Shown one piece after another: positions 1 to 14,010 of a DNA stretch of 19,336 nt. This stretch comes from Thermoplasmatales archaeon SW_10_69_26 (GTDB lineage: Archaea; Thermoplasmatota; SW-10-69-26): assembly GCA_003009755.1 (NCBI GenBank), contig PXUB01000039.1:1-19336 (forward strand), given 5' to 3'. How positions within the stretch are numbered: the first letter of the stretch is position 1; each line of letters begins with the position of its first letter. Below the pieces are notes generated by a model. That model was given only the letters and a program-made list of their open reading frames with translations, had not been told where the DNA came from and ran no database searches. Both the position numbers and the translations under genes were made by a program.

Positions 1-20
1 GGGAGGTCGTCGTTGCTCAT
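1..20 (-). CDS. 5' end of a leftward gene running off the window
   Basis: An ATG at 18-20 opens a reading frame on the minus strand (MSNDDLP...) that leaves the window after 20 bases. It lies in the same direction as, and downstream of, the 80-aa gene at 155-397, so it would be the next gene of the accessory operon or the first of a new transcript. No good Shine-Dalgarno sequence precedes it. An AT-richer patch at about 74-82 (minus-strand TCTCAATAG) could be a TATA element. Nothing can be said about its product. Confidence 0.4.
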
Positions 21-106
21 GCCTGGGGATGGGGGCCTTGGCGGGAGGCGTTGTCCGCGAACGGTTCGATGTCTATTGAGAGGGCGCGTTCAGCACCCTC
101 TTGATA

Positions 107-124
107 CTCTCTCTCTCTCTCTCT
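107..124. repeat. (CT)9 dinucleotide microsatellite
   Basis: Nine uninterrupted CT units lie in the gap between the 80-aa gene and the next leftward gene. On the transcribed strand this is a GA tract. It abuts the first copy of an intergenic direct repeat, whose second copy (411-443) carries only three CT units before its TTG, so the tract probably expanded in one copy. Confidence 0.9.
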
Positions 125-150
125 TGGGTTTTTCGGAGGCTCAGCCGGGT
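118..150 (-). repeat. Intergenic direct repeat, copy A
   Basis: This 33-nt stretch matches 411-443 at 28 of 33 positions. Both copies sit immediately downstream of a stop codon on the minus strand. The shared core, read on the plus strand, is TTTTCGG followed by a CTCAGC block. Repetition after two successive genes suggests either a duplicated gene-gap unit or a functional reinitiation or processing signal. Confidence 0.7.
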
Positions 151-154
151 CAGG

Positions 155-397
155 TCAGACTTGGATTTGTCCCTTGCCGGAGACGGGGTCGCCGTTGTAG
201 TCCAGGACTTCTTTGACGCTGGCCCAGCCGCCGGAGCCATAGGTGGCAAGCGTCCCGTCCCAGTTGATCTCGGCGTCCTTTCCGGGTCCGTTGAAGAGGA
301 GCTCGACGGAGTTGGGGCGGCTGCCTGTGCCTTCAAAGACGACGGTGCCGACCCGGTCGCCCCGGTAAACCAGGGGTACTTCTTCTGTGCCTGCCAT
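155..397 (-). CDS. Hypothetical 80-aa protein of the accessory operon
   Basis: I do not recognise this family. The 80-aa product is soluble, without Cys or membrane segments, and looks beta-rich (alternating stretches around VVFEGTGS, VELLFNG and INWDGTLATYG). The ATG start is strongly supported by a GGAGGGGGT Shine-Dalgarno sequence immediately upstream (398-406), one of the best ribosome-binding sites in the window. It is the last complete gene of the leftward operon, after the 56-aa gene, and is separated from it by a 36-nt gap containing copy B of an intergenic repeat. Its place downstream of a packaging-type ATPase would fit a small structural or accessory protein of a virus, but that is only inference from position. 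Confidence 0.7.
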   Translation of the reverse strand: MAGTEEVPLVYRGDRVGTVVFEGTGSRPNSVELLFNGPGKDAEINWDGTLATYGSGGWASVKEVLDYNGDPVSGKGQIQV

Positions 398-410
398 ACC
401 CCCTCCAGCC

Positions 411-443
411 TCTCTCTTGAGCTTTTCGGGGCCTCAGCGGGGT
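411..443 (-). repeat. Intergenic direct repeat, copy B
   Basis: Second copy of the 33-nt repeat at 118-150 (28/33 identical). The stop codon of the 56-aa gene (434-436) lies inside this copy. The equivalent TGA is also present in copy A but is not used there, because the 80-aa gene stops 12 nt earlier. Confidence 0.7.
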
Positions 444-604
444 GGGTCGACGGGGATGAGGGGGCCCTCGAGGGCGGTGCGGTCGGTGTAGCCGGCGCCC
501 GTCTCGTCCTCGAGCAGGAGGACTCTCCAGCCCTCTTGGACCTTGACGAACGTTCCCAGGTCGGTGCTCCAGTAGTAGCCGGGCTCGGCGTCCGAGGGAT
601 CCAT
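434..604 (-). CDS. Hypothetical 56-aa protein
   Basis: A short open frame starting with ATG at 602-604 and ending with TGA at 434-436. It encodes a 56-aa acidic protein beginning MDPSDAEPGYYWSTDLG and ending PVDPPR. Third codon positions are almost all G or C, as in neighbouring genes, which supports real coding. It starts 21 nt after the ATPase stop and is followed by the 80-aa gene, so it fills what would otherwise be an empty gap in a tightly packed operon. The pattern of aromatic residues and short strands suggests a small beta fold. The family is not recognised. Confidence 0.65.
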   Translation of the reverse strand: MDPSDAEPGYYWSTDLGTFVKVQEGWRVLLLEDETGAGYTDRTALEGPLIPVDPPR

Positions 605-625
605 GCCCGACCGAGAGGCGGGCCG

Positions 626-1258
626 CTACTTAGGCGGTTGGAGCGGGAAGGGCTCGCGCCAGGTGAGGTCCCCAGCGTGGGCGTGCAAGTAGTGATGCTC
701 GGGCAGACGGTCGGCCAGATGCATCTGTGGGGTGCTGGCGATCTCGGCGAGGTCCTCGGCGTCGTCGCTGGGCAGCCGCCAGGCCAGGACGTGGTCCGCC
801 CGTCGGCAAATCTTGGGAATCTCGTTGCTGCGGTGGATCTCGACCAGTAGGCTGGTGTCCTGCTTGTGGGCGGTCCGCCACAGGGTCGACACGTTGTCCG
901 GGGTCGCCGAGGGACTGGTCCCAGGTACCGCCCGGCTAAACTCGAGCAGGACCACCGCGAGGCCGGGGGCGAGGTTTTCGAGGGCGAGGCCGGCGACGTC
1001 GTCGAGCTGGTCGTAGCCGACGTGCAGCGAGACGCAGGGAGTGTCGACGTCGGCGAGGGCGTCGAGGCTGCGGATCTGGGTCCAGCGTTGGGGCTGCATC
1101 GTGGGCGGCGGGTCGGCTGGGTCGAGCTCGCCTTCGGGGTCGTGGACGATGGCCCGGCGGTGCAGCTCAGCAAGAAAGCAAAGCCCGGTCGTTTTCCCCT
1201 GCTCGAAGTCGCCGGCGGCAAGCACCTTGTCCCCGGGCTCGAGCTGCTGGCCGGTCAT
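626..1258 (-). CDS. P-loop ATPase, HerA/Zot-like (candidate DNA-packaging ATPase)
   Basis: A 210-aa single-domain NTPase. Residues 16-23 (GDFEQGKT) form a Walker A motif. A hydrophobic strand ending in an acidic residue (AVVLLEF, 101-107) is the likely Walker B. The strand at about 136-142 (SLLVEIH), followed by SNEIPKICRRADHVLAWRL (144-162), resembles the sensor segment of HerA/FtsK/Zot-type motors, where an IP..R.A.H stretch precedes a strand. The start is the ATG at 1258, whose ATGA overlap with the upstream zinc-ribbon gene means translational coupling; longer upstream starts lie inside that gene. Small ATPases of this class drive genome packaging in tailless dsDNA viruses or virion extrusion in filamentous phages, and pleolipoviruses also carry a conserved NTPase. 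No membrane segment is seen. The P-loop ATPase call is firm; the packaging role is inferred. Confidence 0.75.
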   Translation of the reverse strand: MTGQQLEPGDKVLAAGDFEQGKTTGLCFLAELHRRAIVHDPEGELDPADPPPTMQPQRWTQIRSLDALADVDTPCVSLHVGYDQLDDVAGLALENLAPGLAVVLLEFSRAVPGTSPSATPDNVSTLWRTAHKQDTSLLVEIHRSNEIPKICRRADHVLAWRLPSDDAEDLAEIASTPQMHLADRLPEHHYLHAHAGDLTWREPFPLQPPK

Positions 1259-1467
1259 AGCACCCCCAGGGTCTTGGCTTGGCTCAGGAGGTTCTCGAGG
1301 TCCTCGAGGCACCGACGCTCGCCGATGGGGACCGCCGCCTCTACGCTGCATCCGTCGCCGCAGGTAATGCAGGTGAGGCTTGCCAAGTGAGGAGACTGTT
1401 TGGCAGATTGGTCGGCGTAGAGATGCCCCTCGGGGCAGGTCCAGAGGCGGAGGTAGACCTCAGTCAC
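1255..1467 (-). CDS. Zinc-ribbon miniprotein (70 aa)
   Basis: The product is 70 aa from a GTG start at 1467. That start overlaps the previous gene's stop as GTGA, and this gene's own TGA overlaps the ATPase start as ATGA, so it is coupled on both sides. Cys11, His15, Cys33, Cys36 and Cys40 (CPEGH ... CITCGDGC) form a treble-clef or ribbon-like metal site. A longer frame upstream (to 1575) is Arg/Pro-rich and is a shadow of the neighbouring gene. The function is unknown; such miniproteins are common in archaeal viruses as DNA-binding or adaptor proteins. Close linkage with the ATPase may mean a functional link. Confidence 0.7.
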   Translation of the reverse strand: MTEVYLRLWTCPEGHLYADQSAKQSPHLASLTCITCGDGCSVEAAVPIGERRCLEDLENLLSQAKTLGVL

Positions 1468-1691
1468 CGGTGTTGCCCCCCGCGGCCGCGACGGCGCTGT
1501 TGGCGTTCTTTGAAGCGTTGGGCGGCGGTTTGGACGTCGCCGACGGGGAGGGTGACGCCGTAGCCGCCGCAGCATTTGACGTCGTAGACGATCATCACGC
1601 CGTCTTCTCCGCCGGCTTTGGCGTACTGGCTATCGGGTAGCGGTTCGCCGCACGTCACGCAGTGCTCGGGTTCGGGCGTCTCGTCGGTCAT
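1464..1691 (-). CDS. Cys-containing miniprotein (75 aa), probable zinc knuckle
   Basis: The start is the ATG at 1691 (ATGA overlap with the 288-aa gene) and the stop forms a GTGA overlap with the 70-aa gene. CVTC (11-14) and an adjacent CC pair (40-41) suggest one metal site. The C-terminal third is basic (RFKERQQRRRGRGGQHR), which would suit nucleic-acid binding. Family not recognised. It is the first of two consecutive metal-binding miniproteins leading into the ATPase. Confidence 0.7.
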   Translation of the reverse strand: MTDETPEPEHCVTCGEPLPDSQYAKAGGEDGVMIVYDVKCCGGYGVTLPVGDVQTAAQRFKERQQRRRGRGGQHR

Positions 1692-2554
1692 GCTTTCAGT
1701 TGCTCCTTGAAGCGGGCTTTGCGGGCGTCGAGGTCGGCGTCGTCGGGTTCGGCATCGGGGCCGGCGTGGTCGGTGGGCGTATGGTCTTCGAGGTCGTCCT
1801 CGGTGGCGTCGTCCTGGTCTTGACGGGCGTTTTGGCGGGCTTCGAGGACGCGGGGGCCGAAGACGGCGACGGTGGTGACGGCAGCGCTCACCTCGGCGCC
1901 GTAGTGGGGGAGGTATTTGGCCACGACGGGACTCCAGGCGTCGACCAGGGCGTCTTCTTCCTGTTGGGAGAGGGGTTGGGCGCCGTGGTTCTCGAGGCGG
2001 CCGCTGACGACGCGGACGGTGCTGGTGACAAGCGGGGCGGCCTCGGCGGGATCCATCGCCGGCGGCTCGTCGTCAAGGCCGCCGCGGGAGGTCTCCTTTT
2101 CGGGGGCGGTCTCCTGGTCCTCGTCCGTGGCCTCGGGGGCATCGCGTCGGGGCTTGGGGCGGTCGTCTCCGCCGGGGAGGCTCCAGGTGGTGGCCTGGGG
2201 CTTGTCGACCTGGGCGGTGGCGGGCTCCTGGTCGCGGAGGTCCTCGAGGTTGCGTCCCCCAGCCTCGGGCCCAGGCTCGGCCTCGGCCTCGGATTCGTGC
2301 TGGGGATCGGGCTCGGTTGGGGCCTCGTCGGCGTCGGGATCGTCGGTGCTGGGGGTCCAGCCGTCGTCGGCGGCCTCGAGCTTGGTTTTGTGCTTCTCGC
2401 GGACGTGGTTGGCCATCGGACCGGCGGGGGCCTGTTTCTCACATATTTGGCATTTGTAGCGGGTTTGCCAGGGCGGGGCGTCGTCGCCCTTGTCATCGAC
2501 CCGGTTGGCGAGGTCTTTCCATCCCATCCAGCCCAGCCATGCCAACCCAGACAC
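1688..2554 (-). CDS. C2H2 zinc-finger protein with acidic linker and helical C-terminal domain
   Basis: The 288-aa product starts at GTG 2554, six nt after the methyltransferase stop; ATG 2527 is an alternative. Residues 35-55 hold a classical C2H2 finger (C35-x2-C38-x11-H50-x4-H55) after a Trp-rich N-terminus. Residues about 60-165 are low-complexity and very rich in Asp, Glu and Pro. Residues about 168-235 look like a compact helical domain (LSQQEEDALVDAWSPVVAKY followed by an alternating hydrophobic segment ending GPRVLEAR). The tail is again acidic. The layout suggests a DNA-binding adaptor with a flexible linker. I do not recognise the C-terminal domain. Its place between the modification enzymes and the ATPase would allow a role in regulation or genome recognition, which is speculative. 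Confidence 0.75.
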   Translation of the reverse strand: MSGLAWLGWMGWKDLANRVDDKGDDAPPWQTRYKCQICEKQAPAGPMANHVREKHKTKLEAADDGWTPSTDDPDADEAPTEPDPQHESEAEAEPGPEAGGRNLEDLRDQEPATAQVDKPQATTWSLPGGDDRPKPRRDAPEATDEDQETAPEKETSRGGLDDEPPAMDPAEAAPLVTSTVRVVSGRLENHGAQPLSQQEEDALVDAWSPVVAKYLPHYGAEVSAAVTTVAVFGPRVLEARQNARQDQDDATEDDLEDHTPTDHAGPDAEPDDADLDARKARFKEQLKA

Positions 2555-2560
2555 AAGTAA

Positions 2561-3427
2561 CTACCCGTCTGTGAGTTCCAAGGTCGGGATTTGGCGGCGG
2601 AGTTGGCGGGCGACGGCGCGGCCCATGGCGAGGGGGACGCTGTCGCCGATGGCTGCCGCGGTGGCGGTCTTGGTCTCGGGGAAGGTCCATTTGTCGGGGT
2701 CCATCCCGTGCAGGCGGGCCATGTCATCGGTGTCCAGCCATCGGATGCTGCTCCGGTTGGCCTCGTCCCAGAGCAGGAATCCGTTGACGGATTTGCTGGT
2801 GAGGGTGTAGCCGGGTTCGTGGCCAGGCAGGACGGGCAGGCGGTTTCGGTCCCGATACGCGGCTTGTTGCTGGAAGTCGGCCATGAGGTTCTCATCGCCG
2901 GGGAGGGCTTCGGCCCAGCCGTTGATGGGTTCGAGGCGTTGGCCGTCGAGGCGGGCCTGGCCGGGGTCGCCGTGGGTCCGAGGGGGGGGGTTGTGGAGGC
3001 CTTTGAAGCCGCGTTCGCGGATCGTGTAGCCGCCGACGTCGCAGTCGCGGACCTTGGTGACGTTGTCGATGCCTTGCCAGCCGAGCATGACGTTCTCGAG
3101 CGCGGTGGCTGCGGGGTCGTAGGCGTCGACGAGGTCGAGCACCGCATCGCGGAGGCTGGTGTCGTGCTCGGCGTTGTTGTTGGCTTGGCTGTAGGTTTGG
3201 CAGGGGATGCCGCCGATGACGACGGTTTGGTTGGGGGGCGAGTAAGCGGCGAGGTCGGCGGCGTCCAGGTCGGTGACGTCGGCGACGTTGCAGGTGGCGT
3301 CGGTGTTTTGCTCGTAGCAGCTGGCCCGTTTGTCGTCGAGTTCCCAGGCGGCCATGACGTCGAAGCCTTCGAGCTCGAAGGCCCGGCCGAGGACCCCGAT
3401 ACCGCCGCACAGATCTAGGACGTTCAC
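2561..3427 (-). CDS. DNA (cytosine-5) methyltransferase
   Basis: The 288-aa product has the C5-methylase motifs in order: motif I DLCGGIG (5-11, SAM binding), motif IV GIPCQTYSQ with catalytic Cys76, motif VI ENV (111-113), the recognition-domain region, motif IX-like RWLDTDDMARLHGMDPD (229-245) and motif X IGDSVPLAMG (260-269). It would transfer a methyl group from SAM to cytosine C5 in a specific DNA sequence. The start is GTG 3427, overlapping the PP-loop gene's stop as GTGA; a frame extending to 3478 lacks family similarity. At under 300 aa it is at the small end of the family. No restriction endonuclease is adjacent, so it is probably a solitary methylase protecting the element's DNA or marking it during replication. 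The target sequence cannot be predicted. Confidence 0.93.
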   Translation of the reverse strand: MNVLDLCGGIGVLGRAFELEGFDVMAAWELDDKRASCYEQNTDATCNVADVTDLDAADLAAYSPPNQTVVIGGIPCQTYSQANNNAEHDTSLRDAVLDLVDAYDPAATALENVMLGWQGIDNVTKVRDCDVGGYTIRERGFKGLHNPPPRTHGDPGQARLDGQRLEPINGWAEALPGDENLMADFQQQAAYRDRNRLPVLPGHEPGYTLTSKSVNGFLLWDEANRSSIRWLDTDDMARLHGMDPDKWTFPETKTATAAAIGDSVPLAMGRAVARQLRRQIPTLELTDG

Positions 3428-4245
3428 AAGGGACCTCCCTCGGTCCTCGGAGTCGTCCCGTTTCCGCAGGTGGAGCAAAGCATCGCCTGGCTGGGATCGA
3501 GCTCGGCGCGGACGGCCCGGCGCTCGGACTCGGTCATCCCGCCCCAGGCCCAGAGGAGGCGGTGGGCCTGGTCGACGTCGTCGGCGAGCTCGTCCTCGAC
3601 GAGCCCCTCGAGGTTCTCGAGCCAGTCGGCGTGTTCGTCCTCGCCGGCGGCGCGGAGATCGAGGAGCTCAGCCGGGCTCCCGTAGAAGCCGCAGAAGCAG
3701 TCGCCGGAGCGGCCAAGGTCGGCCCACAGGGGGTTTTCGGGGAGGTCGTTCTCGGCGATGTGTTCGCAGACCTGGTTCTTCGTCCACTCAGCGAGGGGCG
3801 CGACCCAGGTCCAGCGGTCGGCCTCTTGGACGGGCGTCACGCGACCCATGCGGTTGCGGCTCTCCCGACGCCGGACGCCGGTCCACAGGTGGAGCCCTTC
3901 ACCCTGGCCCCGGCCGCCGACGGTGGTAGCGAGGCGTTCGAGTGGCCTCTCCTTGAGGCGACGGTAGAGGACAGGGTGGTCTCGGGGGCCGGGGAAGCCG
4001 TGCGTGGTGACGATCTCCGCGTAGCTCTCCCGCGTTCGGAGGGTCCAGAGGTGGGCGTCGAGCTCGTCGGCCAGGTCTTCGACGTATTGGCGGTTGCTCT
4101 CGAGGCCGGTGCCGGTGTCGAGGTAGACGAGGAGGCCGACGCCGTGCTCAGTGACAGCGACGTGGGCCGCGGCGGTGCTGTCCATCCCGCCGCTGACAAG
4201 GGCGACGTGGGTCTCGCCATGCGACGGCTCGGGTAGGTCAGCCAA
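3424..4245 (-). CDS. PP-loop ATPase, phosphoadenosine phosphosulfate reductase-like
   Basis: The 273-aa product carries the PP-loop SGGMDST (18-24), which adenylates substrates in the PAPS reductase / QueC / DndC superfamily. Other family-like blocks are YLDTGTGLES (41-50), LWTGVRRRES (120-129) and GRSGDCFCGFYGSPAEL (178-194). Cys160, Cys183, Cys185, Cys257 and Cys260 could hold a metal or Fe-S cluster. TTG 4245 is the likely start, overlapping the HAD gene by 8 nt, and the gene's TGA overlaps the methyltransferase GTG. Viral and plasmid members of this family are common but mostly uncharacterised. Possible roles are sulfur chemistry on DNA (DndC-like) or base modification. The adjacent DNA methylase favours a DNA-modification role, but no cysteine desulfurase or other Dnd/Ssp partner is in the window. 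Confidence 0.8.
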   Translation of the reverse strand: MADLPEPSHGETHVALVSGGMDSTAAAHVAVTEHGVGLLVYLDTGTGLESNRQYVEDLADELDAHLWTLRTRESYAEIVTTHGFPGPRDHPVLYRRLKERPLERLATTVGGRGQGEGLHLWTGVRRRESRNRMGRVTPVQEADRWTWVAPLAEWTKNQVCEHIAENDLPENPLWADLGRSGDCFCGFYGSPAELLDLRAAGEDEHADWLENLEGLVEDELADDVDQAHRLLWAWGGMTESERRAVRAELDPSQAMLCSTCGNGTTPRTEGGPL

Positions 4246-4696
4246 GGCCGGGAGCCTCCTCGAGCTCGTCGGTGATGTCGGCGCCGGCGAGCAGGCGCCA
4301 GGTCCTCGCGAAGATGAAGCGAGCGCCGGCCTGGCTGGCGGCTTTCAAGTCGTAGAGACGGTCGCCGATGTAGACGTCGGCGCCGATCTTCGCGAGGACC
4401 TCGGCCTTCCACGCTCGAGCATCTTCGATGCCCTCCCACGGCTCCGGCTGGAAGTGGACGTCTTCGAGCGGGGGGGTATTCACGTTAGCGAGCTGGTGGG
4501 TCGTCGCACCGGCAAGCCGGGTGGTGCGGGCGGTGACGATGTGGACGTAACAGCGGTGCGCGATGCGGGATAAGAGATTCATCGACGGCCTGTGCGGTCT
4601 TGTCGAGGCCCGGACGCTGACGGGATCGGTGAAGTCGGCGTCCTCTTCTCCGGTGAACAGGGTCCCGTCGAGGTCGACGGCGAGCGTGTTCAACAC
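4238..4696 (-). CDS. HAD-superfamily hydrolase (phosphatase)
   Basis: The 152-aa product has the HAD signatures: motif I VDLDGTLF with Asp8 as nucleophile and Asp10, motif II HIVTART (Thr55), a Lys near 97 for motif III, and motif IV IGDRLYDLKAA (Asp112, Asp116). It contains only a small cap region and resembles 5'-nucleotidase-type HADs, so a nucleotide or other small phosphate is a plausible substrate. GTG 4696, preceded by GAGGGGGGT, is preferred; the much longer frame upstream overlaps other genes and is Arg/Pro-rich noise. It overlaps the Cys-rich miniprotein gene by 7 nt and the PP-loop gene by 8 nt. Together with those genes it may form a nucleotide or DNA-modification module. Confidence 0.85.
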   Translation of the reverse strand: MLNTLAVDLDGTLFTGEEDADFTDPVSVRASTRPHRPSMNLLSRIAHRCYVHIVTARTTRLAGATTHQLANVNTPPLEDVHFQPEPWEGIEDARAWKAEVLAKIGADVYIGDRLYDLKAASQAGARFIFARTWRLLAGADITDELEEAPGLG

Positions 4697-4881
4697 GGAC
4701 CCCCCTCGGTGGCGTGGTCGCCGTATCGGCACCAAACGCAGAGGCGGTTGCAGAAGTACGTGTGGAGCTCGCAGCCGGGCTCGCACTCCTCGCAGGGGCA
4801 CGGGTCTTTGGGTCGGCCGCTTTCGAGGGCCACCGCCTCGTAAAGGTCGGTGACGGCCTCGCAGGAGTTCGGACGGCTCAT
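4690..4881 (-). CDS. Cys-rich metal-binding miniprotein (63 aa)
   Basis: This 63-aa protein contains nine cysteines (7, 28, 30, 33, 37, 44, 48, 51, 63) and His40, most of them packed into residues 28-51. This is enough for two zinc sites or an Fe-S cluster. The ATG at 4881 overlaps the upstream stop as ATGA, and its stop lies inside the HAD gene's start region. The family is not recognised. The density of ligands and the tight coupling to the HAD and PP-loop enzymes make a metal-trafficking, electron-transfer or DNA-binding role possible. Confidence 0.7.
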   Translation of the reverse strand: MSRPNSCEAVTDLYEAVALESGRPKDPCPCEECEPGCELHTYFCNRLCVWCRYGDHATEGGPC

Positions 4882-5105
4882 GTTGGCCCTCCCTCATCAG
4901 GGAGCAGGTCGCGGGGCGTGGGGCCATAGCAGCCCAGGGGTACGCGGTCGTGCCAGACCGCGCAGTCGGCGATGTAGCTTTGGATGAGGTGGCCTTGCTC
5001 GAGATCCTGGGCCTCGAGGACGTCAGGGCCGTCCAGGTCGAGGAGCAGGGCGCCGGGGTCGCCTATGGGTTCGTCTGGCATCGGGTCGTGGCTGTCGCTA
5101 TTCAT
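4878..5105 (-). CDS. Hypothetical acidic 75-aa protein
   Basis: The start is the ATG at 5105, overlapping the stop of the replication-initiator gene by 8 nt; the TGA at 4878 overlaps the next ATG as ATGA. The sequence is Asp/Glu/Pro-rich at both ends with a central segment (LIQSYIADCAVWHDRVPLGCYG) that probably folds. There are two Cys residues. It has no recognisable family. Placement directly after the candidate initiator suggests a replication accessory factor or small regulator, an inference from position only. Confidence 0.65.
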   Translation of the reverse strand: MNSDSHDPMPDEPIGDPGALLLDLDGPDVLEAQDLEQGHLIQSYIADCAVWHDRVPLGCYGPTPRDLLPDEGGPT

Positions 5106-6750
5106 CGTTGTCCTCCTGTCGTTTGATCTCGTGGTCGCGCATCCGCCAGCTGATCGCGTCGTGGCGGAGGCGGTCGGTGTCGGCCGCGTCGATCAGCCGG
5201 CCGCGGCGGACGCTGGGCTCGACGTCGACGGGGTCGCGGTCCTCCTCGGCGGGATCGTGGCCCAGGCTAGCCTGGGCGTCCTCGCTGGCTCCGTCCCCGA
5301 TGGCCTGCTCGCACAGGCGAGCGACGTCGGTGCGGTTGAGGCCGCCGTGCTCCTCGAGCTGCTGCCCGCAGCGGGTGCACATCTCGGCCTCCGGCAGGGT
5401 TACGTAGGTGGCCAGTCGGTCGCGGGCCCGCCATTCGAGCCCGCGCATGTTCTCCGGCGTCGGGGGGTCCAGCCCGTCGCCGCCGGCCGCCTCGTGGACC
5501 AGGGCGCTGGCTATGTCCTCGCGGACGAACGCGAGCCAGCCGGTGTCTTCGAGCTGGCCCCAGAGGTTCTCGCCGGCGTCGGGGTCGGGGACGCCGAGCT
5601 CGTCGGCGAACGCCTGCCAACCGCGGTGGCCGAGCTCGCCGTACCAGCGGCTCATCTGCCAGTTCTCCGGCGTTAGGGCCTGGACGGTCAGGACGCCGGC
5701 GGTGAACTCGTCGAGGGGGACGGTTTGGGTGTCGTGGTCGAGGTCGTCGCGGTCCTCGACGTCGAGCCGGACCCAATCCTGGCCGACGCTCAGGAGGCGC
5801 CGGTTGACGTCCTCGAGGTGGGGCCGCGTGTTGTACTTGGCTCCGTGGCTGAGTTTCGCCAGGTCCTCGCGGTCCCGGACCCACAAGGGCCGGTAGCGGA
5901 GGTTCTGGGTGCCCTCGAGGTCGCGGCCGCTCCAGTCCTCGAGGAGGTCCTTCCAGAGCTCGCGCATCTCGTCGAGCTCGCTCGTGGGCCGGTACAGCGG
6001 GCGCTGGCTGCCCGGCTCGCGCTCGAGGGCCCGCAACTCGCCGTGCTGATTACGGTAAACGGCCGGCGCCCAGACGTGCAGGTGGGGCCGGATCTGGTGG
6101 GGGAGGCTGCTGCTCGTCCGGTGGATCGAGACCCATGCCCCGACGGGCTCGCCCGGCAGGCCCATCAGCCGCCAGGCGTGCTCGAGGAAGGTCTCGCCGA
6201 GCCGGGCGAAGTCCCCGCCGCCTTCGTCCACGATCTCGCCCCAAGCCTCAGCCTCGAGCTCGGGCGGCAACGTGAGCTCGCACCGGATGAGGCCGAGCTC
6301 GCCCCCGCGGCCGCCGACGGCTTTCGCCATCCGCTTGAAACGGTCTCTGGCGGTCGATCCTCGCCCTTGGAAGGCGTTCCAGCTCCGGCCGTGGGGGTCC
6401 CAGCGGTCGCCGCTCAGGTAGGGCCGCCAGGAGGGGTCCTCGTGGCGCTCGCCGTCGCCGGCGTCGGGGCAGGAGACGGCGACGTAGCCCTCGCAGCCGC
6501 CGATCTCGTCGATTCGCTTTTCGTCGGGCAGCCGCGTGGGCAGCTCGCTGAGGACGCCGCGAGGCACGAGCTCGCCCTCGGCCTGCATCCGGTCGTAGGT
6601 GGCCAGGGCCTCCAGCCACGACATGTAGGGGGCCTTGGGCCGGCGCTGCTCCCAGTAATCGAGCACGCCGTCCACGGGAGAGGACTCGTCGGCCACGTCA
6701 TCGAGCAGCCATGCGGGGGCCCGCGCTCCGAACCGATCGGCGGCCGTCAT
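5098..6750 (-). CDS. Candidate HUH rolling-circle replication initiator (Rep)
   Basis: The 550-aa product has motifs in the order expected of HUH endonucleases: a strand LGLIRCELTLP (152-162, motif I position), the metal-binding histidine pair RPHLHVW (His223, His225, motif II), and LSHGAKYNTRPHL (300-312) with Tyr306 as candidate nucleophile (motif III, reminiscent of single-tyrosine Rep and IS91-type YxxR segments). These enzymes nick one DNA strand at the origin and stay linked through tyrosine. The C-terminal part is long and Trp-rich, with a CxxC pair (458-461, MCTRCGQQ) and an acidic end. ATG 6750 is preferred because GGGGGGCCGAG precedes it; an in-frame GTG at 6780 is the alternative. 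It opens the leftward operon, next to a hairpin-rich region that could be its origin. A transposase of IS91 type is a less likely reading. Confidence 0.6.
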   Translation of the reverse strand: MTAADRFGARAPAWLLDDVADESSPVDGVLDYWEQRRPKAPYMSWLEALATYDRMQAEGELVPRGVLSELPTRLPDEKRIDEIGGCEGYVAVSCPDAGDGERHEDPSWRPYLSGDRWDPHGRSWNAFQGRGSTARDRFKRMAKAVGGRGGELGLIRCELTLPPELEAEAWGEIVDEGGGDFARLGETFLEHAWRLMGLPGEPVGAWVSIHRTSSSLPHQIRPHLHVWAPAVYRNQHGELRALEREPGSQRPLYRPTSELDEMRELWKDLLEDWSGRDLEGTQNLRYRPLWVRDREDLAKLSHGAKYNTRPHLEDVNRRLLSVGQDWVRLDVEDRDDLDHDTQTVPLDEFTAGVLTVQALTPENWQMSRWYGELGHRGWQAFADELGVPDPDAGENLWGQLEDTGWLAFVREDIASALVHEAAGGDGLDPPTPENMRGLEWRARDRLATYVTLPEAEMCTRCGQQLEEHGGLNRTDVARLCEQAIGDGASEDAQASLGHDPAEEDRDPVDVEPSVRRGRLIDAADTDRLRHDAISWRMRDHEIKRQEDNDE

Positions 6751-6797
6751 CTCGGCCCCCCGCAGAGACCAAATGCACACGTCTGTACATCAGGGGG

Positions 6798-6805
6798 TAT
6801 TTGAA
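6798..6805 (-). promoter_or_regulatory. TATA box for the Rep-led operon
   Basis: On the minus strand TTCAAATA is a good archaeal TATA element in an otherwise GC-rich stretch. Initiation about 25 nt downstream would fall near 6776, giving a short leader before the ATG at 6750. A TGTACA palindrome just downstream (6785-6790) could be an operator. This supports a promoter dedicated to the accessory operon. Confidence 0.6.
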
Positions 6806-6918
6806 TGGGGGTCGGCGCCCGCGGAACCTGTCTCCCCATTCCCACCAAGGGGGAGCCGACCATACTGGGCGCGCCTCGCGGCACCCTTGGCTGGGATGGG
6901 CTGCCTGGTAGTCGGGAT

Positions 6919-6952
6919 AACCCCGCGCGGCCGCGGGGCGGCCGCGCGGGTT
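6919..6952. repeat. Strong GC-rich hairpin with one bulge
   Basis: Arms 6919-6934 and 6938-6952 pair over 15 bp, interrupted only by one extra C on the left arm, with a GGG loop. It lies between the tRNA-like sequence and the Rep promoter. It could be a replication-origin hairpin for the HUH enzyme or a barrier between transcripts. No U-tract follows on either strand. Confidence 0.7.
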
Positions 6953-6991
6953 CGGTGGTGGACTGTTGGCTCGGTGCTCGAGCCGTAGAAG

Positions 6992-7069
6992 GCCGCCGGC
7001 CGGACTCGAACCGGCGTGGCCCCCGGCTTCGGGCCAGGGGCCGGATCGGCCTGGCTACCTCACGGCGGC
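6992..7069 (-). tRNA. tRNA-like sequence with non-canonical anticodon arm
   Basis: Read leftward, 78 nt fold with a perfect 7-bp acceptor stem (GCCGCCG with CGGCGGC), T8-G9, an archaeal-style D arm (A14, G15, G18-G19 and A21 equivalents, and a U13-U22 opposition as in archaeal Pro, Gln or Glu tRNAs), and a perfect 5-bp T stem with a TTCGAGT loop. The discriminator would be C and no CCA is encoded. The anticodon arm is wrong for a working tRNA. A CCCCT/GGGGG stem leaves an 11-nt loop, while the longest pairing gives a 9-bp helix with loop CCCGAAG, and neither places U at position 33. It may be a decayed tRNA, an attachment site derived from a tRNA, or a viral tRNA mimic. No intron in a typical bulge-helix-bulge is visible. 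Confidence 0.5.
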
Positions 7070-7078
7070 AGCGGAGGG

Positions 7079-7101
7079 CCACCACACGTCGTGTGTGGTG
7101 G
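7079..7101. repeat. Hairpin, 9-bp perfect stem
   Basis: CCACCACAC (7079-7087) pairs with GTGTGGTGG (7093-7101) around a 5-nt loop, starting 10 nt upstream of the 5' end of the tRNA-like sequence on the minus strand. It is one of four hairpins clustered between 6919 and 7183. Confidence 0.75.
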
Positions 7102-7107
7102 TCTATG

Positions 7108-7129
7108 ACCCCCGACATGTTGTGGGGGT
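7108..7129. repeat. Near-perfect 22-nt palindrome
   Basis: ACCCCC and GGGGGT arms flank a centre (GACATGTTGT) that is itself nearly palindromic, so almost the whole 22 nt is self-complementary. It could be a dimeric protein-binding site (operator) or part of an origin. Confidence 0.6.
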
Positions 7130-7137
7130 GGTCGGTG

Positions 7138-7183
7138 GGCGGGCCGGCCGCCGACCTGTGGTGGGGTCGGCAGTCGGCCCGCC
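7138..7183. repeat. Long two-part hairpin downstream of the 74-aa gene
   Basis: GGCGGGCC (7138-7145) pairs with GGCCCGCC (7176-7183) and GCCGACC (7150-7156) pairs with GGTCGGC (7165-7171), separated by a symmetric 4x4 internal loop and closed by an 8-nt loop. It begins seven nt past the stop of the 74-aa gene in the direction of transcription. It could be a transcript end or RNA-stabilising structure, although no U-tract follows. Confidence 0.75.
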
Positions 7184-7189
7184 GGAGGC

Positions 7190-7414
7190 TCACGGTGGGG
7201 TCTCGCCTCCCTCGTCGGTCTCGATCACCAGGGCGAGCGGGGCGGTGGACGTGTCGCCGCCGCTGGCCTGACTGAGGTAGCTATCGACGGCCTCGGTCAC
7301 CCAATTCTCGGGCCCCCCGCTGACGGGGACGGGCAGCCGCCAGCGATCAGTGAGGAACCATATCTCGCCGAGCGGGGTGTGGAGGAGGGGCGTCAGGTAG
7401 GCGGTCTCGGCCAT
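7190..7414 (-). CDS. Hypothetical 74-aa protein
   Basis: Third gene of a leftward three-gene cassette. The ATG at 7414 overlaps the preceding stop by one base (TGATG), indicating translational coupling. The product is soluble and acidic at its end, with an N-terminal segment MAETAYLTPLLHTPLGEIWF and no Cys. The family is not recognised. A strong hairpin follows its stop. Confidence 0.65.
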   Translation of the reverse strand: MAETAYLTPLLHTPLGEIWFLTDRWRLPVPVSGGPENWVTEAVDSYLSQASGGDTSTAPLALVIETDEGGETPP

Positions 7415-7716
7415 CAGGGCCGCGCCTCCCGGGGCTCGAGGATGCCGACGGTTCGGCCCTCGAGGGCGTCGGGGACGTCTTCCCGGGGGCCGTCGTCGAG
7501 CGCGAGGCGGGCGGCCTGGGCGAGGACGCGCTCGGCCCGATCCTGACGGCTCACTCGGAAGACCTTGGCGAGGCCGGGCCGGTCCGGGTCGCCGATGCCG
7601 ACCTCAGCGATGACGACCTCGCCGGCCGAGGCCATGATGCGGACCTCGACGGTGGCCGGAGCCTGGTCGCGGACCTGCTCGAGCAGCTCGCCGGCGGGCG
7701 CCGGGTCGGAGCTCAA
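7414..7716 (-). CDS. Hypothetical 100-aa protein
   Basis: The likely start is TTG 7716, overlapping the upstream stop as TTGA. The product looks like a small alpha/beta fold: a helix (AGELLEQVRDQ), two strands (TVEVRIMASAGEVVIAEVGIG), then a helix (RQDRAERVLAQAARLAL) and an acidic tail. There are no cysteines or membrane segments. I do not recognise the family. Its codon pattern (G/C third positions) matches real genes nearby. It is coupled to both neighbours, so the three proteins are probably made together. Confidence 0.65.
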   Translation of the reverse strand: MSSDPAPAGELLEQVRDQAPATVEVRIMASAGEVVIAEVGIGDPDRPGLAKVFRVSRQDRAERVLAQAARLALDDGPREDVPDALEGRTVGILEPREARP

Positions 7717-8156
7717 GGGCGACCGCCCCCGGCGATCTTGCAGCCGAGCCGGTGGGCGTGCTCGCCGACGTCCTCGGCCTCCTGGCGGATCTCCTCGCGG
7801 AAGCTCTCGAGGGTGCCCGGCCTGACGCCATCGAGGTCGAGGGTGTCGAGGAGCTCGGTGAGCCGGTCGGCGACGTCGTGCAGGGCTCGGGCTCGGCCGC
7901 GTTGGACGGCGTGGGCGTAGGCGAGCGAATCGCTTGCCGGGTCGCCGTCGAGGCGAGCCCGCAGGTAGTCGAGTTGAGTGGAGAGACGGCGGACTTGCTC
8001 AAGAGCGAGGGCAGCCGCCTCGAGCTGCCGTTGGCGCCCGCCGCCATGGCGGCGAGCGTCACCTCGCAGCCGTGAGATGGTTGCGCCGAGGTTGTCGGGC
8101 AGTTGGTCAGAATCTGAGCGCGAGAGGTCGGGGTTGTAGGGTGTCTCGTCGTTCAT
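7713..8156 (-). CDS. Hypothetical helical protein (147 aa), possible coiled coil
   Basis: First gene of the leftward cassette. The ATG at 8156 is preceded by GGAGGGT five nt upstream, but that site lies within strong hairpins (8158-8205). The protein is almost entirely helical by composition, with heptad-like hydrophobic spacing in residues about 45-70 (LEAAALALEQVRRLSTQLDY) and 90-110 (ARALHDVADRLTELLDTLDL). It ends with a short His/Gly tail. There is one Cys near the end. No family is recognised; a structural or DNA-associated role is possible. Whether the cassette belongs to the accessory element or to the host is not clear. Confidence 0.7.
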   Translation of the reverse strand: MNDETPYNPDLSRSDSDQLPDNLGATISRLRGDARRHGGGRQRQLEAAALALEQVRRLSTQLDYLRARLDGDPASDSLAYAHAVQRGRARALHDVADRLTELLDTLDLDGVRPGTLESFREEIRQEAEDVGEHAHRLGCKIAGGGRP

Positions 8157-8157
8157 C

Positions 8158-8205
8158 GGGACCCTCCAGCCTCCCCCGTTCGTGGGGGAGGGTCCGGCGG
8201 GTCCC
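8158..8205 (-). promoter_or_regulatory. Leader with alternative hairpins that cover the Shine-Dalgarno site
   Basis: CCTCCCCC (8170-8177) can pair with GGGGGAGG (8184-8191). Alternatively GGACCCTCC (8159-8167) can pair with GGAGGGTCC (8187-8195). The two overlap at 8187-8191 and so exclude each other. GGGACCC (8158-8164) can also pair with GGGTCCC (8199-8205). On the mRNA the 8159-8167 arm contains the GGAGGG ribosome-binding site of the 147-aa gene, so folding would hide it. This suggests translational control or protein-dependent opening. Confidence 0.5.
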
Positions 8206-8254
8206 GACCTGACTGAGGGGCTCGCGCCCGTCAGCCCCGCCCTACGGCGGCAGG

Positions 8255-8261
8255 CTTATAC
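8255..8261 (+). promoter_or_regulatory. Possible TATA box for the 35-aa membrane miniprotein
   Basis: CTTATAC stands out in the GC-rich stretch and points rightward. Initiation about 25 nt downstream would be near 8283, leaving a leader of about 100 nt before the preferred GTG start at 8381. Confidence 0.35.
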
Positions 8262-8380
8262 GGCGGAGGCAGGGGGACGCGGTGGTTCCCCGGAGGGATC
8301 CAGTTGACGACCTCGTTTCGATGACTCCGCCAGATGCTTCAAGTGGTCCCGCGAGAGAGCCATCGGTGCGAGGTGACACC

Positions 8381-8488
8381 GTGTACGAGTGGCTCCCCAC
8401 GTCGATCGTGATCGCCACCTTCCTCTTCGGCATCCTAGCCGAAGCCATCGAATCCGGGCGGCTCACCGCCTGGACGACCAAGGCCTAA
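8381..8488 (+). CDS. Single-pass membrane miniprotein (35 aa)
   Basis: From GTG 8381 the product is 35 aa with one hydrophobic helix (WLPTSIVIATFLFGILAEAI) and a short polar tail ending in WTTKA. The start is chosen because GAGGTGA (8370-8376) sits four nt upstream, and because third-position G/C jumps sharply at this point: codons upstream in the same frame often end in A or T, those downstream are almost all G or C. In-frame ATG 8321 and GTG 8282 are therefore less likely. It is the only plus-strand gene in the left half. Small membrane proteins of this kind occur in archaeal viruses and plasmids. Function unknown. Confidence 0.55.
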   Translation: MYEWLPTSIVIATFLFGILAEAIESGRLTAWTTKA

Positions 8489-8695
8489 CCGATAGAGCCC
8501 TCGCCGGTGTCCCTTCCCTCACCCTTGCTCCCGCCAGCTCAGGCCAGAGCCCGGGCCGGGGACGTTGATCCCGGCATCGGTCGGATCGCGAGACCGGATC
8601 GGGCGTCGACGGCCTCGGGCGACCACCGTCGTTCGCCTGGGTGAGGGAAGACCTGCAGGAGGGGAGAGCCTCGAACCCGGATGGTCGACGGCGGG
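8489..8695. other. Non-coding stretch before the tandem repeat
   Basis: No convincing gene on either strand. It holds a short imperfect stem (CGGTC/GACCG around 8580) and a CCTGCAGG palindrome (8652-8659). The open frames crossing it are Arg/Pro-rich and run into the repeats. Confidence 0.5.
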
Positions 8696-8881
8696 CTAGC
8701 GATGCTCGCGTTTCGTACGAGCGGTCCGAGGGAAGTGTGCCTTAGGCGTTTCCACTCATCGCAGGTCGGCTTGACGTGATGGGGGAGCCGACCTGCGATT
8801 TCGCACGGGCGCCCGGAACGCTGTGAGGGCGGGCGCCCGTGCTCACTGAGAACCGCCTCGGGCCAAGCGTCTCGAGGCGGA
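8696..8881. repeat. 186-bp tandem repeat, copy A
   Basis: First of two direct copies, starting CTAGCGATGCTCGCGTTTCG. It contains three inverted repeats. H1 has arms 8758-8770 and 8787-8799 (13 bp perfect) with a 16-nt loop. H2 has arms 8803-8814 and 8831-8842 (12 bp perfect) with a 16-nt loop. H3 has arms 8853-8860 and 8873-8880 (8 bp) with a 12-nt loop. A short GCTCG/CGAGC stem lies near the start. No coding potential is evident. Confidence 0.9.
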
Positions 8882-9067
8882 CTAGCGATGCTCGCGTTTC
8901 GTACGAGCGCCCGCGGGAAGTGTGCCCTGAGCGTTTCCACTCATCGCAGGTCGGCTTGACGTGATGGGGCAGCCGACCTGCGATTTCGCACGGGCGCCCG
9001 GAACGCGGTGGGAGGGGGCGCCCGTGCTCACTGAGAACCGCCTCGGGCCAAGCGTGTCGAGGCGGTT
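8882..9067. repeat. 186-bp tandem repeat, copy B
   Basis: Second copy at exactly 186 bp offset. H1 arms 8943-8955 and 8972-8984 (13 bp) and H2 arms 8988-8999 and 9016-9027 (12 bp) are unchanged. The H2 loop differs in sequence from copy A (ggaacgcggtgggagg against ggaacgctgtgagggc) yet remains 16 nt. H3 extends beyond the copy to a 16-bp perfect stem (9030-9045 with 9058-9073, 12-nt loop). In copy A that stem is cut to 8 bp because copy B begins there, implying that copy A was created by duplication. Confidence 0.9.
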
Positions 9068-9077
9068 CTCAGTCACG

Positions 9078-9102
9078 TACGTCCGGCCGCTGGCCGGACG
9101 TA
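9078..9102. repeat. 11-bp perfect hairpin H4
   Basis: TACGTCCGGCC (9078-9088) pairs with GGCCGGACGTA (9092-9102) around GCT. It lies between the tandem repeats and the hairpin at the mcm stop codon, continuing the run of palindromes. Confidence 0.85.
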
Positions 9103-9108
9103 GTGATC

Positions 9109-9144
9109 GACAGACGGCCGCCGTCGTGTGGCATGCCGTCTGTC
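9109..9144. repeat. 10-bp hairpin H5 overlapping the mcm stop codon
   Basis: GACAGACGGC (9109-9118) pairs with GCCGTCTGTC (9135-9144) around a 16-nt loop, the same loop length as H1 and H2. The right arm includes two bases of the mcm TGA (9143-9145), so the structure sits exactly at the 3' end of the mcm reading frame. It may end or protect the mcm transcript. Confidence 0.85.
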
Positions 9145-11266
9145 AATCCCGCACCAACCGGTAGTGGTCGCCGTTGTCGGGCGAGTACAGCGTGCCGCGC
9201 TGGTTCTTCAGCATCTTGATCGTGTCCTCGACCTGGTGCTCGGTGATGCCGCGCTCGGCGGCTTGGGCCACGATCACGTCGTAGGGCGCGCCGTCGGGGT
9301 TCTCCTCGCTGAGCTCCCGCACGATGTCCAGCAGGATGCGGATGCGCTCGCGCTGGCTGTGGCCGACACCGCTGGCGACCAGATCGATGTCCATGAGCCC
9401 GCTGCCGCCCCCGATCTTCCGCAACCAGTACTCGACGATGTCGATGGCTCGCTGGGCGTCCTCGAGCTCGGCCTCGTTCGACAGCCGGATGCGAGCCGAG
9501 GCCTCGGTCAACCGGACCAACGCCTCGAGCTGGCGAGGCGTCAACGGGATGCGGCCGCTGTCCTCGCCGCCTTCGCCGCGGATCTGGACGTAGTAGTCCT
9601 GCAGGTGCTCGCGCGCCTCCTCGGTGAGCACCGGGAAACACTCCCGGCGAGCGTAGGCGACGTACTTGCGCAGGAAGTCCTCGTCGACAGGCGGCTCGAC
9701 GACCTGGTTGGCCTCCTCCTGGTCGTCCTCGGTGAACAGGCCCTCCTCGTGCCGGTCACGGTACTCGCGGATCGCGCCGGCCCTGTGCACGCCCATGATG
9801 TGGTCCGCCAGCTCGCGGTCCTTCTCCTCCTCGGGGTCGTCGGTGAGCGTGAAGATCACGTCGAAGCGGCTCATCAGCGCCGGCTCCATCGTGATCTGCT
9901 CGGCCAGCGGCTGGTTCGGGTCGAAGCGGCCGAACTTCGGGTTGGCCGCGCCCAGGATCGCGCACCGGCTGCGCAGCTCCGCCTGGATGCCGGCCTTGGC
10001 GATCGAGACCGTCTGCTGCTCCATGGCCTCGTGCATCGACGACTGATCCTTGCGGTCCATCTTGTCGATCTCGTCGACCGCGCACAGGCCCTTGTCGGCG
10101 AGCACGAGCGCGCCCGCCTCCAGCGTCCATCGCCCATCGGCCAGATCGTCGCGCACGGCCGCCGCCGTCAACCCGGCCGCCGAGGACGATTTCCCGCTCG
10201 TGTACACCGAGCGGGGCGCGATCTTCTCGGCGAACCCGAGCAGCTGGGATTTCCCCACGCCCGGGTCACCGACGAGGAGCACGTGGATGTCCCCGCGGAT
10301 GCGGGACCCGTCCGGCATGCGCTTGGCGACGCCGCCGAACAGCTGCATCGCCAGCGCTTGCTTCTCCATCTCCATGCCGCGGATCGTGGGGGCCACGCTC
10401 TCCACGATCTTCTGGTAGAGGTCGGGATCGCGGGCGAACTCCATGATCTCCTCGACCTCGTCCTCGCCGATGTCCACCTCGTCGAACTCCTGCTCTTGAA
10501 CCTCGACGCTGTTGACCTCACTGTAGAGGTCGAAGAGGGTGGACGGTTGCCCGTTGATGCGGCGCTGGTCGCTGCGGAGCACCCCGTTGAGGATGATCCG
10601 ATCGCCGGGAGCGACGTCGCCCGCCAGATCCCCTTCGACGTAGGCTTCCAGCCGCTCGGGCTGCTCCCCGCCGCGCAGCCCCTCGGGAGCCTCTTGCAGC
10701 TCCAGACGCTGCGTGTCGACGTAGGTCGAGTCGCCCTCGTCGAACCGGAACTGGCTCTGCTTCTCGCACTGCTGGCAGCCTTGGGGCTCCTTGAACGTGA
10801 GATGGTCGTCCTGCTCGACGTGCTCGGTGTGGCCGCACCGCAGGCACTCGAAGGCGCCGACCTCGAGCTTTGGGCGGACCTCGCTGGCCTTCTTCACCAA
10901 CCCGCGGATCGCGACGAACCGACCCAGGTGTTCGGCCCGCAGCTGCCGGATCGGGACCAGCCAGTGCTCGGGCAGCTCGTAGACGCGCACCGTGATGTCC
11001 AACGGCTCGTCGACGGGCGTCTCCAGCCGCCGCACCGCTTCCTTGGCCGCCTCCAAGCTCTCGACGGGGTTCTCCAAGGTCGCGTCCGCCAGCTCGTCGT
11101 CGTGCTTGGCCAGCTGCCAGTACGGGACCAGCAAGGACGACTCCTCGGGGTAGGCCAACGCGACCTGATCGAGCTGGCTGCGCTGGTACGTTCGGAGGTA
11201 CTGTTCCCAGGAGCGACGGAGGGCTTCCTTCGTGAGGGTCGTGGAGACTTGGACAGGCGTGGCCAT
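9143..11266 (-). CDS. mcm: MCM replicative DNA helicase
   Basis: The 707-aa product is a complete archaeal MCM, the hexameric 3'-5' helicase that unwinds DNA at the fork. The N-terminal domain includes a C4 zinc site (Cys141, Cys144, Cys164, Cys167) and an OB fold. The AAA+ core has Walker A GDPGVGKS (333-340), Walker B CAVDEIDKM (395-403), sensor 1 GAANPKFGRF (439-448) and the arginine-finger segment LMSRFDVIF (464-472). The last 80 residues form the usual winged-helix domain. ATG 11266 is chosen: GGGGTG precedes it and the family N-terminus begins soon after, whereas the upstream extension to 11353 is Pro/Gly-rich; ATG 11281 is a minor alternative. No intein is present. Neighbours give no replication operon. 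It marks the transition from the accessory region to chromosomal genes. Confidence 0.97.
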   Translation of the reverse strand: MATPVQVSTTLTKEALRRSWEQYLRTYQRSQLDQVALAYPEESSLLVPYWQLAKHDDELADATLENPVESLEAAKEAVRRLETPVDEPLDITVRVYELPEHWLVPIRQLRAEHLGRFVAIRGLVKKASEVRPKLEVGAFECLRCGHTEHVEQDDHLTFKEPQGCQQCEKQSQFRFDEGDSTYVDTQRLELQEAPEGLRGGEQPERLEAYVEGDLAGDVAPGDRIILNGVLRSDQRRINGQPSTLFDLYSEVNSVEVQEQEFDEVDIGEDEVEEIMEFARDPDLYQKIVESVAPTIRGMEMEKQALAMQLFGGVAKRMPDGSRIRGDIHVLLVGDPGVGKSQLLGFAEKIAPRSVYTSGKSSSAAGLTAAAVRDDLADGRWTLEAGALVLADKGLCAVDEIDKMDRKDQSSMHEAMEQQTVSIAKAGIQAELRSRCAILGAANPKFGRFDPNQPLAEQITMEPALMSRFDVIFTLTDDPEEEKDRELADHIMGVHRAGAIREYRDRHEEGLFTEDDQEEANQVVEPPVDEDFLRKYVAYARRECFPVLTEEAREHLQDYYVQIRGEGGEDSGRIPLTPRQLEALVRLTEASARIRLSNEAELEDAQRAIDIVEYWLRKIGGGSGLMDIDLVASGVGHSQRERIRILLDIVRELSEENPDGAPYDVIVAQAAERGITEHQVEDTIKMLKNQRGTLYSPDNGDHYRLVRD

Positions 11267-11342
11267 GATCGTGCACCCCATCGCTTCCAGCGGGGACGGC
11301 CGCCATCCCGGGGCCCCTTCACCAGGTTTCTCCGGAAGCAGG

Positions 11343-11350
11343 GGAAAAAC
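11343..11350 (-). promoter_or_regulatory. Possible mcm promoter element
   Basis: On the minus strand GGTTTTTCCCC is the only AT-rich patch upstream of mcm. A transcription start about 25 nt downstream would give a leader of about 50 nt, consistent with mcm having a Shine-Dalgarno-like GGGGTG. The spacing is reasonable but the match to a TATA box is weak. Confidence 0.3.
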
Positions 11351-11401
11351 CACCCCGGGGGCACGCCCACCCCCCTGTTGCGAGTGGAGGGCCCAACCCT
11401 C

Positions 11402-12341
11402 TCACGCCCTATCCTGCTTCCCGCGAACGGTTCGACGGGTTTTCGGTTCTTCTGCGAGCCAGGGCAGATCCGCCCTGAGCAGGCGAAGAGGTCCCGTGCG
11501 ATGCGCCAACGTGGGGCGGTCGGTGATGAGGTCCATCAGCGAGGGATGGCTCGTGGCCCGAGCCAGCTGGCGTTGGCCGTTCACCGTCCAGACGACGATG
11601 GGTCGATCCAGCGAGAAAACGCGAGGCCGGCCTAACCGGAACAACCGGCGCTCGAGCACGAGCCTGTCCGGGTCGGCCTCCTCGACCCACCAGCGCAGCC
11701 GGCGCATGCGGCGGCGCGAGACCAGCAAGCGGTCGGCCCGGTAGGCCCAGGATCAGCCCGGTCGGGCTGGGGTTCCCGGCGTCGTCGGTGTCGCGGACGA
11801 GGTCACGGTGGACCCCGGTCACGACCGCGGCCGGGGTCTCTGCATCGTCCAGCGTCTCCAACACAGCGTCGGTCGCTTGCGGGGCCTCGATCTCGGGGTT
11901 CGCCGGTCCCCGCGAAGACGTCCTCGCCGACGGACCATCGACCCTCGCCAGCTCCTAGTCAAGCTAGACTGCCGGACGTGTTTTGCTTAAGCTCTCGCGC
12001 CGGTCTCGGCAGACCGGGCACGGTCTGCCGAGAGTACGGGCGCCAAGCCCGTGCGAATGAGCGAGGCAAGGTCGCGGAGCCCGAGGAAGGAAACCCCCTG
12101 TGGGTTTTCTCGGTCCCCGAGCTCGGACGAGGAGGTCTGCGAGACGGGGAGTCCGGCCAGCGTCCGGTCGCGGGGAAGAATCGGGATGCCATCGGCCGTC
12201 GAGCGAGGGTCGAGATCGACCGCGTCCGCCAGAGGCGAACGCGGCTTCGACGCTCTCGATCGTGTGCTCGTGGTCGACGACCGGGGCTAAACCGCGATGG
12301 GAGACGACCGGCGGCCGGGTGGCCGGCCACCCCTCCCCCAT
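11402..12341 (-). pseudogene. Glycerophosphodiester phosphodiesterase, frameshifted and interrupted by a repeat
   Basis: The remains of a GDPD gene are read in three frames. The N-terminal part from ATG 12341 has the HRG signature (VVSHRGLAPVVDHEHTIESV). After a shift near 12230, the frame continues ADAVDLDPRSTADGIPILPRD, where the family normally has ELD...T.DG.PV..HD; the catalytic His of HD is Arg here. Repeat copy 1 (11963-12109) then breaks the gene and brings a stop. Downstream, TPAAVVTGVHRD and, after another shift near 11745, FSLDRPIVVWTVNGQ and LITDRP match the C-terminal GDPD block (VWTVN ... TDRP). A further shift is likely near 11905. Three shifts, a mutated catalytic residue and an insertion argue for a true pseudogene rather than a sequencing error. 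It begins 12 nt after the FKBP stop, so it was probably co-transcribed with that gene. Confidence 0.8.
11963..12109 (+). repeat. Palindromic interspersed repeat, copy 1 (with 52-nt extra hairpins)
   Basis: It begins GCTAGACTGCCGG and is identical to copy 2 over the first 44 nt. It then has 52 extra nt (12007-12058), which help form a 12-bp perfect hairpin (12004-12015 with 12022-12033) and a shorter ACGGGC/GCCCGT stem. It rejoins copy 2 for about 50 nt with one substitution and one indel, ending in a GAAACCC/GGGTTT stem. It lies within the GDPD pseudogene. Confidence 0.85.
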
Positions 12342-12353
12342 CGGGTCGGCCGC

Positions 12354-12782: not shown

Positions 12783-12824
12783 ACCCTGCGCTAGAAGCTC
12801 TTCCCAAGTAAGGGCTTGCGTCCT

Positions 12825-13976: not shown

Positions 13977-14001
13977 CACTCCGGCGGTTCGCCGACGCGC
14001 T

Positions 14002-14010
14002 GAAAAGCCT
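14002..14010 (-). promoter_or_regulatory. TATA-like element for the anchored secreted protein
   Basis: Minus-strand GGCTTTTCA lies 26-34 nt upstream of ATG 13976, the spacing expected for leaderless archaeal transcripts. Confidence 0.4.

Follow-up and report, generated by a model that had tools for sequence, protein, structure and literature searches.

A compact row of leftward genes, headed by a candidate replication initiator, lies at one end of a contig from the uncultured, GC-rich Thermoplasmatales archaeon SW_10_69_26, raising the question of whether these genes belong to the chromosome proper or to a mobile element residing in it. The window analysed here, 19,336 nucleotides in full, comprises bases 1-19336 of the 54,741-base contig C39 (54.7 kb), in a genome of 2.8 Mb and 49 contigs that is 95% complete. 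We favour, with moderate confidence, the reading that these genes form part of an integrated archaeal mobile element, either a temperate virus or a cryptic plasmid, interrupted by an insertion sequence (IS).

Operon architecture and the contig end

The features of the locus, in window coordinates, are:

1-98 (about), minus strand: left end of an IS1595-family IS, with terminal repeat and first transposase codons (MSNDDLP...), recognised from repeat copies elsewhere
155-397, minus strand: g12, 80-aa protein (ORF, GC3 0.77; no Pfam match)
434-604, minus strand: g11, 56-aa protein (ORF, GC3 0.89)
626-1258, minus strand: g10, 210-aa P-loop ATPase, possibly HerA/FtsK-like (Walker A GDFEQGKT)
1255-1467, minus strand: g09, 70-aa Cys-rich protein (ORF; CxxC)
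1464-1691, minus strand: g08, 75-aa Cys-rich protein (ORF; CxxC)
1688-2554, minus strand: g07, 288-aa protein (CxxC...HxxxxH close to the N-terminus; acidic over a long middle and tail)
2561-3427, minus strand: g06, C5-cytosine DNA methyltransferase, 288 aa (Pfam DNA_methylase, E 6e-24)
3424-4245, minus strand: g05, PP-loop (PAPS-reductase-like) protein, 273 aa (PF01507; KA-4 and HFTV1 homologues)
4238-4693, minus strand: g04, HAD-family phosphatase, 151 aa (phrog_1238, E 6e-5; HAD-SF-IIIA, E 8.5e-4)
4690-4881, minus strand: g03, 63-aa Cys-rich protein (two CxxC motifs)
4878-5105, minus strand: g02, 75-aa acidic protein (ORF and codon pattern)
5098-6750, minus strand: g01, candidate HUH rolling-circle initiator, 550 aa (motifs ELTLPP, PHLHV and KYNTR in order)
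6796-6810 (approximate), minus strand: TATA-like promoter element region upstream of g01 (sequence reading)
6922-6950, no strand: perfect 13-bp inverted repeat with a 3-base loop, upstream of g01

The first-pass annotation had described twelve complete leftward genes, mostly joined by overlaps, and the ORFs bear this out. Twelve complete ORFs run leftward from 6750 to 155 and, as read from the coordinates, 8 of the 11 junctions overlap, either by 8 nt (5098/5105, 4238/4245) or by 4 nt (4878/4881, 4690/4693, 3424/3427, 1688/1691, 1464/1467, 1255/1258), the others being short gaps (2561/2554, 626/604, 434/397). GC3 of the ORFs is 0.77-0.93, with a codon-position GC pattern like that of the flanking chromosomal genes, indicating that all twelve are real genes; the GC content of the operon does not differ from that of the chromosome. 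The TATA box assigned to the first gene was likewise found, as a TATA-like TTCAAATA ~50 nt upstream of the g01 ATG. The inverted repeat at 6922-6950 is a candidate origin hairpin or terminator. To the right of the operon lie ordinary chromosomal genes encoding MCM, FKBP, TatC and a Nuo51-type protein; the MCM gene is single-copy, no second one having been found in the genome.

Since the window begins at base 1 of C39, window position 1 is the contig end. Copies of the IS end located there (window 1 to ~98) occur at C39:54643-54741 (100% identical), at the end of C4 (92%) and, as part of whole elements, in C47 and C32. The C47 copy encodes an IS1595-family transposase with Zn_ribbon_IS1595 (PF12760) and DDE_Tnp_IS1595 (PF12762) domains, and the element shows the hallmarks of that family: a zinc ribbon with an ISXO2-like transposase, inverted ends and an 8-bp target repeat. 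Because positions 1 to ~98 carry the end of this IS, the minus-strand ORF from ~19 (MSNDDLP...) is its transposase; the assembly broke at the repeat, and C39 ends inside the IS. The operon had been expected to run leftward out of the window into viral genes, but what is found there is the end of an IS1595-family element and of the contig itself. Leftward extension of the contig, proposed as a check, ended at the same point: the matching right half of the window's IS, identifiable by the target repeat ATCAAGAG, did not turn up in the bin, where the left ends of most contigs and some right ends were checked. The IS end at C6:1-100 was considered as the continuation and rejected. It is identical to that at C39:54643-54741, and the flanks of the two share the 8-bp target repeat CTCGACAG, which pairs C6 with the other end of C39 and makes these contigs probable neighbours.

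Candidate initiator, ATPase and small proteins

The g01 protein is likely an HUH Rep, an assignment to this family that we base on its motifs. The rolling-circle motifs appear in the right order, with ELTLPP at ~156-158, PHLHV at 222-226 and KYNTR at 305, placing the candidate catalytic tyrosine at Tyr306. The three-motif pattern was met only in g01 among 1,434 ORF segments of the genome (at least 200 aa) and in 1 of 20,000 shuffles, figures that flatter g01 because the pattern was composed after the protein had been seen. Searches of Pfam, PHROGs, NCBIfam, PDB sequences, plasmids, phages and viral contigs gave no significant match to g01, and a homologue was absent from all other genomes of the class (seven genomes in all, source genome included) and from 291 other genomes of the same phylum. 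Profile comparison by hhalign with alphapleolipovirus Reps and SNJ1 RepA was null. A single-sequence AlphaFold model (pLDDT 40) has a strand and helix order compatible, at low confidence, with an HUH core, and Foldseek returned for it a weak list including the HUH relaxases NES and TraI, with no E below 0.001; the single-sequence structure predictions, that of g01 included, were poor and uninformative models. Of the HUH initiator first proposed, the three ordered motifs, including H-x-H, therefore stand, whereas homology to any known Rep family was not found. Such a Rep would initiate rolling-circle replication by nicking one strand through Tyr306, and the GC hairpin a short distance upstream of g01 may be where it does so.

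Two other initiators were compared. SNJ1 RepA (Simuloviridae) has RPHVHL around its H-x-H and a downstream Tyr, as in g01, but the two share no alignable homology beyond ten residues. The Rep-Arvir initiator of archaeal viruses and plasmids, similar in size to g01 and located near a DNA hairpin, is described as a family distinct from HUH (PMC13107129). This family was set aside for g01, which gave no significant match to HRPV-3 ORF9, taken as the family's counterpart.

The g10 protein has a clear Walker A motif (GDFEQGKT) and a Walker B identified by eye only. Its best match covers 23 residues of HRPV-1 VP8, around Walker A. No significant family or profile match was obtained in Pfam or PHROGs or in comparisons with the pleolipovirus ATPase profile and the KA-4 ATPase, and no homologues were found in viral contigs, plasmids or phages. 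The HDPEGEL that follows Walker A recalls the DPKGEL of HerA/VirD4 proteins, which we treat as a lead only. Of the HerA/Zot-like packaging ATPase named in the first-pass annotation, the Walker A was thus retained but a significant family match was not. The protein may move DNA, for packaging or transfer, and a packaging-type role would be one form of this.

A C2H2 protein had also been named. In g07 a Cys/His stretch (CxxC...HxxxxH, N-terminal) does precede an acidic tail, but no family match was obtained, and 389 genomes of the same phylum held no relative beyond noise at E ~0.005. At the search sensitivity used, the candidate Rep, the ATPase and this acidic, putative zinc-finger protein are orphans. 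None of the twelve operon proteins has a hydrophobic segment above KD 1.6 and none is a predicted membrane protein; no capsid, spike, integrase or partition gene is recognisable in the operon.

Modification genes and their viral counterparts

The PP-loop and C5-methylase enzymes reported among g04-g06 were supported by Pfam (PAPS_reduct, PF01507, E 6e-14 for g05; DNA_methylase for g06), and the HAD enzyme, g04, by matches that are weak yet consistent across libraries. The PP-loop protein has full-length homology to halovirus proteins, with the motif SGGMDS and 48-56% identity over ~250 aa: it is 56% identical to a gene of a Halobacterium sp. KA-4 region that looks like a provirus, 48% to gp58 of Haloferax tailed virus 1 (HFTV1, Haloferuviridae) and 38% to gp21 of Halorubrum tailed virus 29 (HRTV-29). 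Judged by these alignments, g05 is clearly a gene of halovirus type; homologues were found on haloarchaeal plasmids too. A survey of archaeal tailed viruses relates the PP-loop gene of HRTV-29 and HFTV1 possibly to sulfur assimilation (PMC8651126). In our searches g05 also scored as SspD-like (E 3.5e-8), which hints at sulfur or DNA chemistry, and the six operon proteins scanned included no partner from the Ssp/Dnd phosphorothioation set (SspABCD or DndABCDE). In g06, motifs I, IV (PCQ), VI (ENV) and X are present, VIII (QxRxR) was not found and IX was seen by eye only. Homologues of the methylase and the HAD protein in viral contigs, plasmids and phages were limited to one plasmid methylase at 24%. 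Together, the PP-loop, HAD and C5-methylase proteins may modify DNA or nucleotides, most likely against host restriction.

The mixture of PP-loop, HAD and methylase genes had been called unrecognised, a view that comparison with viruses revised. HFTV1 gp58-gp60 encode a PP-loop protein, a 44-aa ORF and then a DNA methyltransferase in the same direction, so the pairing in the operon is not new; the HFTV1 methyltransferase is weakly similar to g06 (E 7.5e-5). The pleolipovirus Halfgib1 has a Dcm methylase. The parts of the operon are thus of familiar types, and HFTV1 already has the most striking pair among them. HFTV1 and HRTV-29 differ from the operon in being tailed, with terminase, portal and helicase, and in having no HUH Rep or HAD gene by the cassette in the annotated regions compared. 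In KA-4, the surroundings of the PP-loop gene include a P-loop ATPase (packaging PHROG, E 2e-9), a XerC/D-type integrase and several proteins of structural type that are strongly hydrophobic, the features that make the region look like a provirus; as in the operon, a zinc-finger-plus-acidic-tail protein is also nearby. Beyond the PP-loop protein, however, the region has no significant match to a window protein, the two ATPases do not align significantly, and its integrase and hydrophobic proteins have no counterpart in the operon.

A resemblance to pleolipoviruses or PM2-like viruses had also been suggested. Members of the Pleolipoviridae do share features with the operon: PHLHV in the HRPV-1 Rep, CxxC proteins, an ATPase whose Walker A is similar and, for Halfgib1, the methylase. 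The resemblance did not extend to the family comparisons of Rep and ATPase, which were null, and the operon lacks a spike or membrane protein. In the pleolipovirus records compared, the ATPase gene follows spike and membrane protein genes, whereas none lies upstream of g10 in the window. The core of the family (spike, internal membrane proteins, VP8-type NTPase) was accordingly not found within the operon, the NTPase profile comparison being non-significant.

Putative integration and alternative readings

ARAGORN places a tRNA-Ser(CGA) at window 6991-7069, whose T-arm and acceptor stem are both good. Rfam, which scores 41 other tRNAs in this genome at 43-74 bits, reports none at this position even at E 1; the sequence is possibly a decayed tRNA. 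Integration at a tRNA gene was rejected: Rfam refuses the sequence, its T-arm is not repeated exactly elsewhere and the window has no integrase. No att repeat was found for the element. Around the MCM gene of five relatives in the class there are no relatives of the operon genes and nothing else is conserved either, so comparison with an empty site yields no element boundary.

We nevertheless infer an integrated, mobile origin. The three rolling-circle motifs in order, with g01 absent from the class and phylum genomes searched, argue for a mobile element, as do the kin of the PP-loop protein in the integrase-bearing KA-4 region, HFTV1 and HRTV-29, the HFTV1-like order of PP-loop and methylase, and the many tiny Cys-rich proteins in a compact operon, as in archaeal viruses. 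Against it count the lack of an integrase, capsid, spike, partition gene, att repeat or Rfam-accepted tRNA, the chromosome-like GC, and the assignment of the Rep and ATPase families from motifs, with poor models and null profile comparisons. The IS1595 insertion hides what adjoins the left end, where the contig breaks.

An archaeal provirus of tailless or pleomorphic type, with structural genes just past the IS, would explain why the PP-loop gene has kin in a virus and a provirus and why Rep, ATPase and small Cys-rich proteins occur together, as in pleolipoviruses; the 23-residue similarity of g10 to VP8 fits as well. We regard it as unlikely, given the missing membrane and spike proteins, the null hhalign comparisons with pleolipovirus Rep and ATPase profiles, and the absence upstream of g10 of the genes that precede the pleolipovirus ATPase. 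An integrated cryptic plasmid that acquired a halovirus modification cassette is possible, if on the doubtful side: a Rep heads the operon, there is no structural gene, the modification genes would shield a plasmid from restriction and haloarchaeal plasmids carry PP-loop homologues, but Rep and ATPase have no match in plasmid records and no partition gene is seen.

The chromosome-like GC and codon pattern, the orphan proteins with their uninformative models, and the lack of an integrase or att repeat would suit a stable island of rapidly evolving chromosomal genes, such as a defence island, in which g01 is not a Rep. This we hold to be very unlikely, as the Rep-type motif set is rare in the genome, kin of the operon genes are absent near MCM in the five class relatives (though nothing else is conserved there), and PADLOC models give no complete defence system. 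Also distinctly unlikely is a virus of a new family, infecting a poorly sampled archaeal class, of which the operon would form the half devoted to replication and modification, with an HUH Rep unrelated in sequence to known ones. If the favoured reading, an integrated mobile element, is correct, it would add such an element to an archaeal class where our searches met nothing related to it, and halovirus modification genes would reach a distant archaeal lineage. It would also add a further divergent candidate to the rolling-circle initiators, in keeping with how often archaeal replication proteins go unrecognised.

Several other features of the genome were observed. Between the tRNA-like sequence and MCM, window 7190-8156 holds three further leftward ORFs (74, 100 and 147 aa) with overlapping junctions; Pfam gives no convincing match for them, and they may be part of the same element or of the chromosome. 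Directly downstream of the MCM gene, window 8685-9065 contains a ~190-bp tandem duplication, 93% identical and rich in inverted repeats. Fragments of a MITE-like short-repeat family with inverted ends lie at window 11963-13160, and this family occurs near many contig ends of the genome. Lastly, at C19:58919-61842 a tRNA-Phe (Rfam 73.5 bits) is directly adjoined by genes for a tyrosine recombinase and a Prim-Pol, which mark an integrated element of this genome distinct from the one discussed above.
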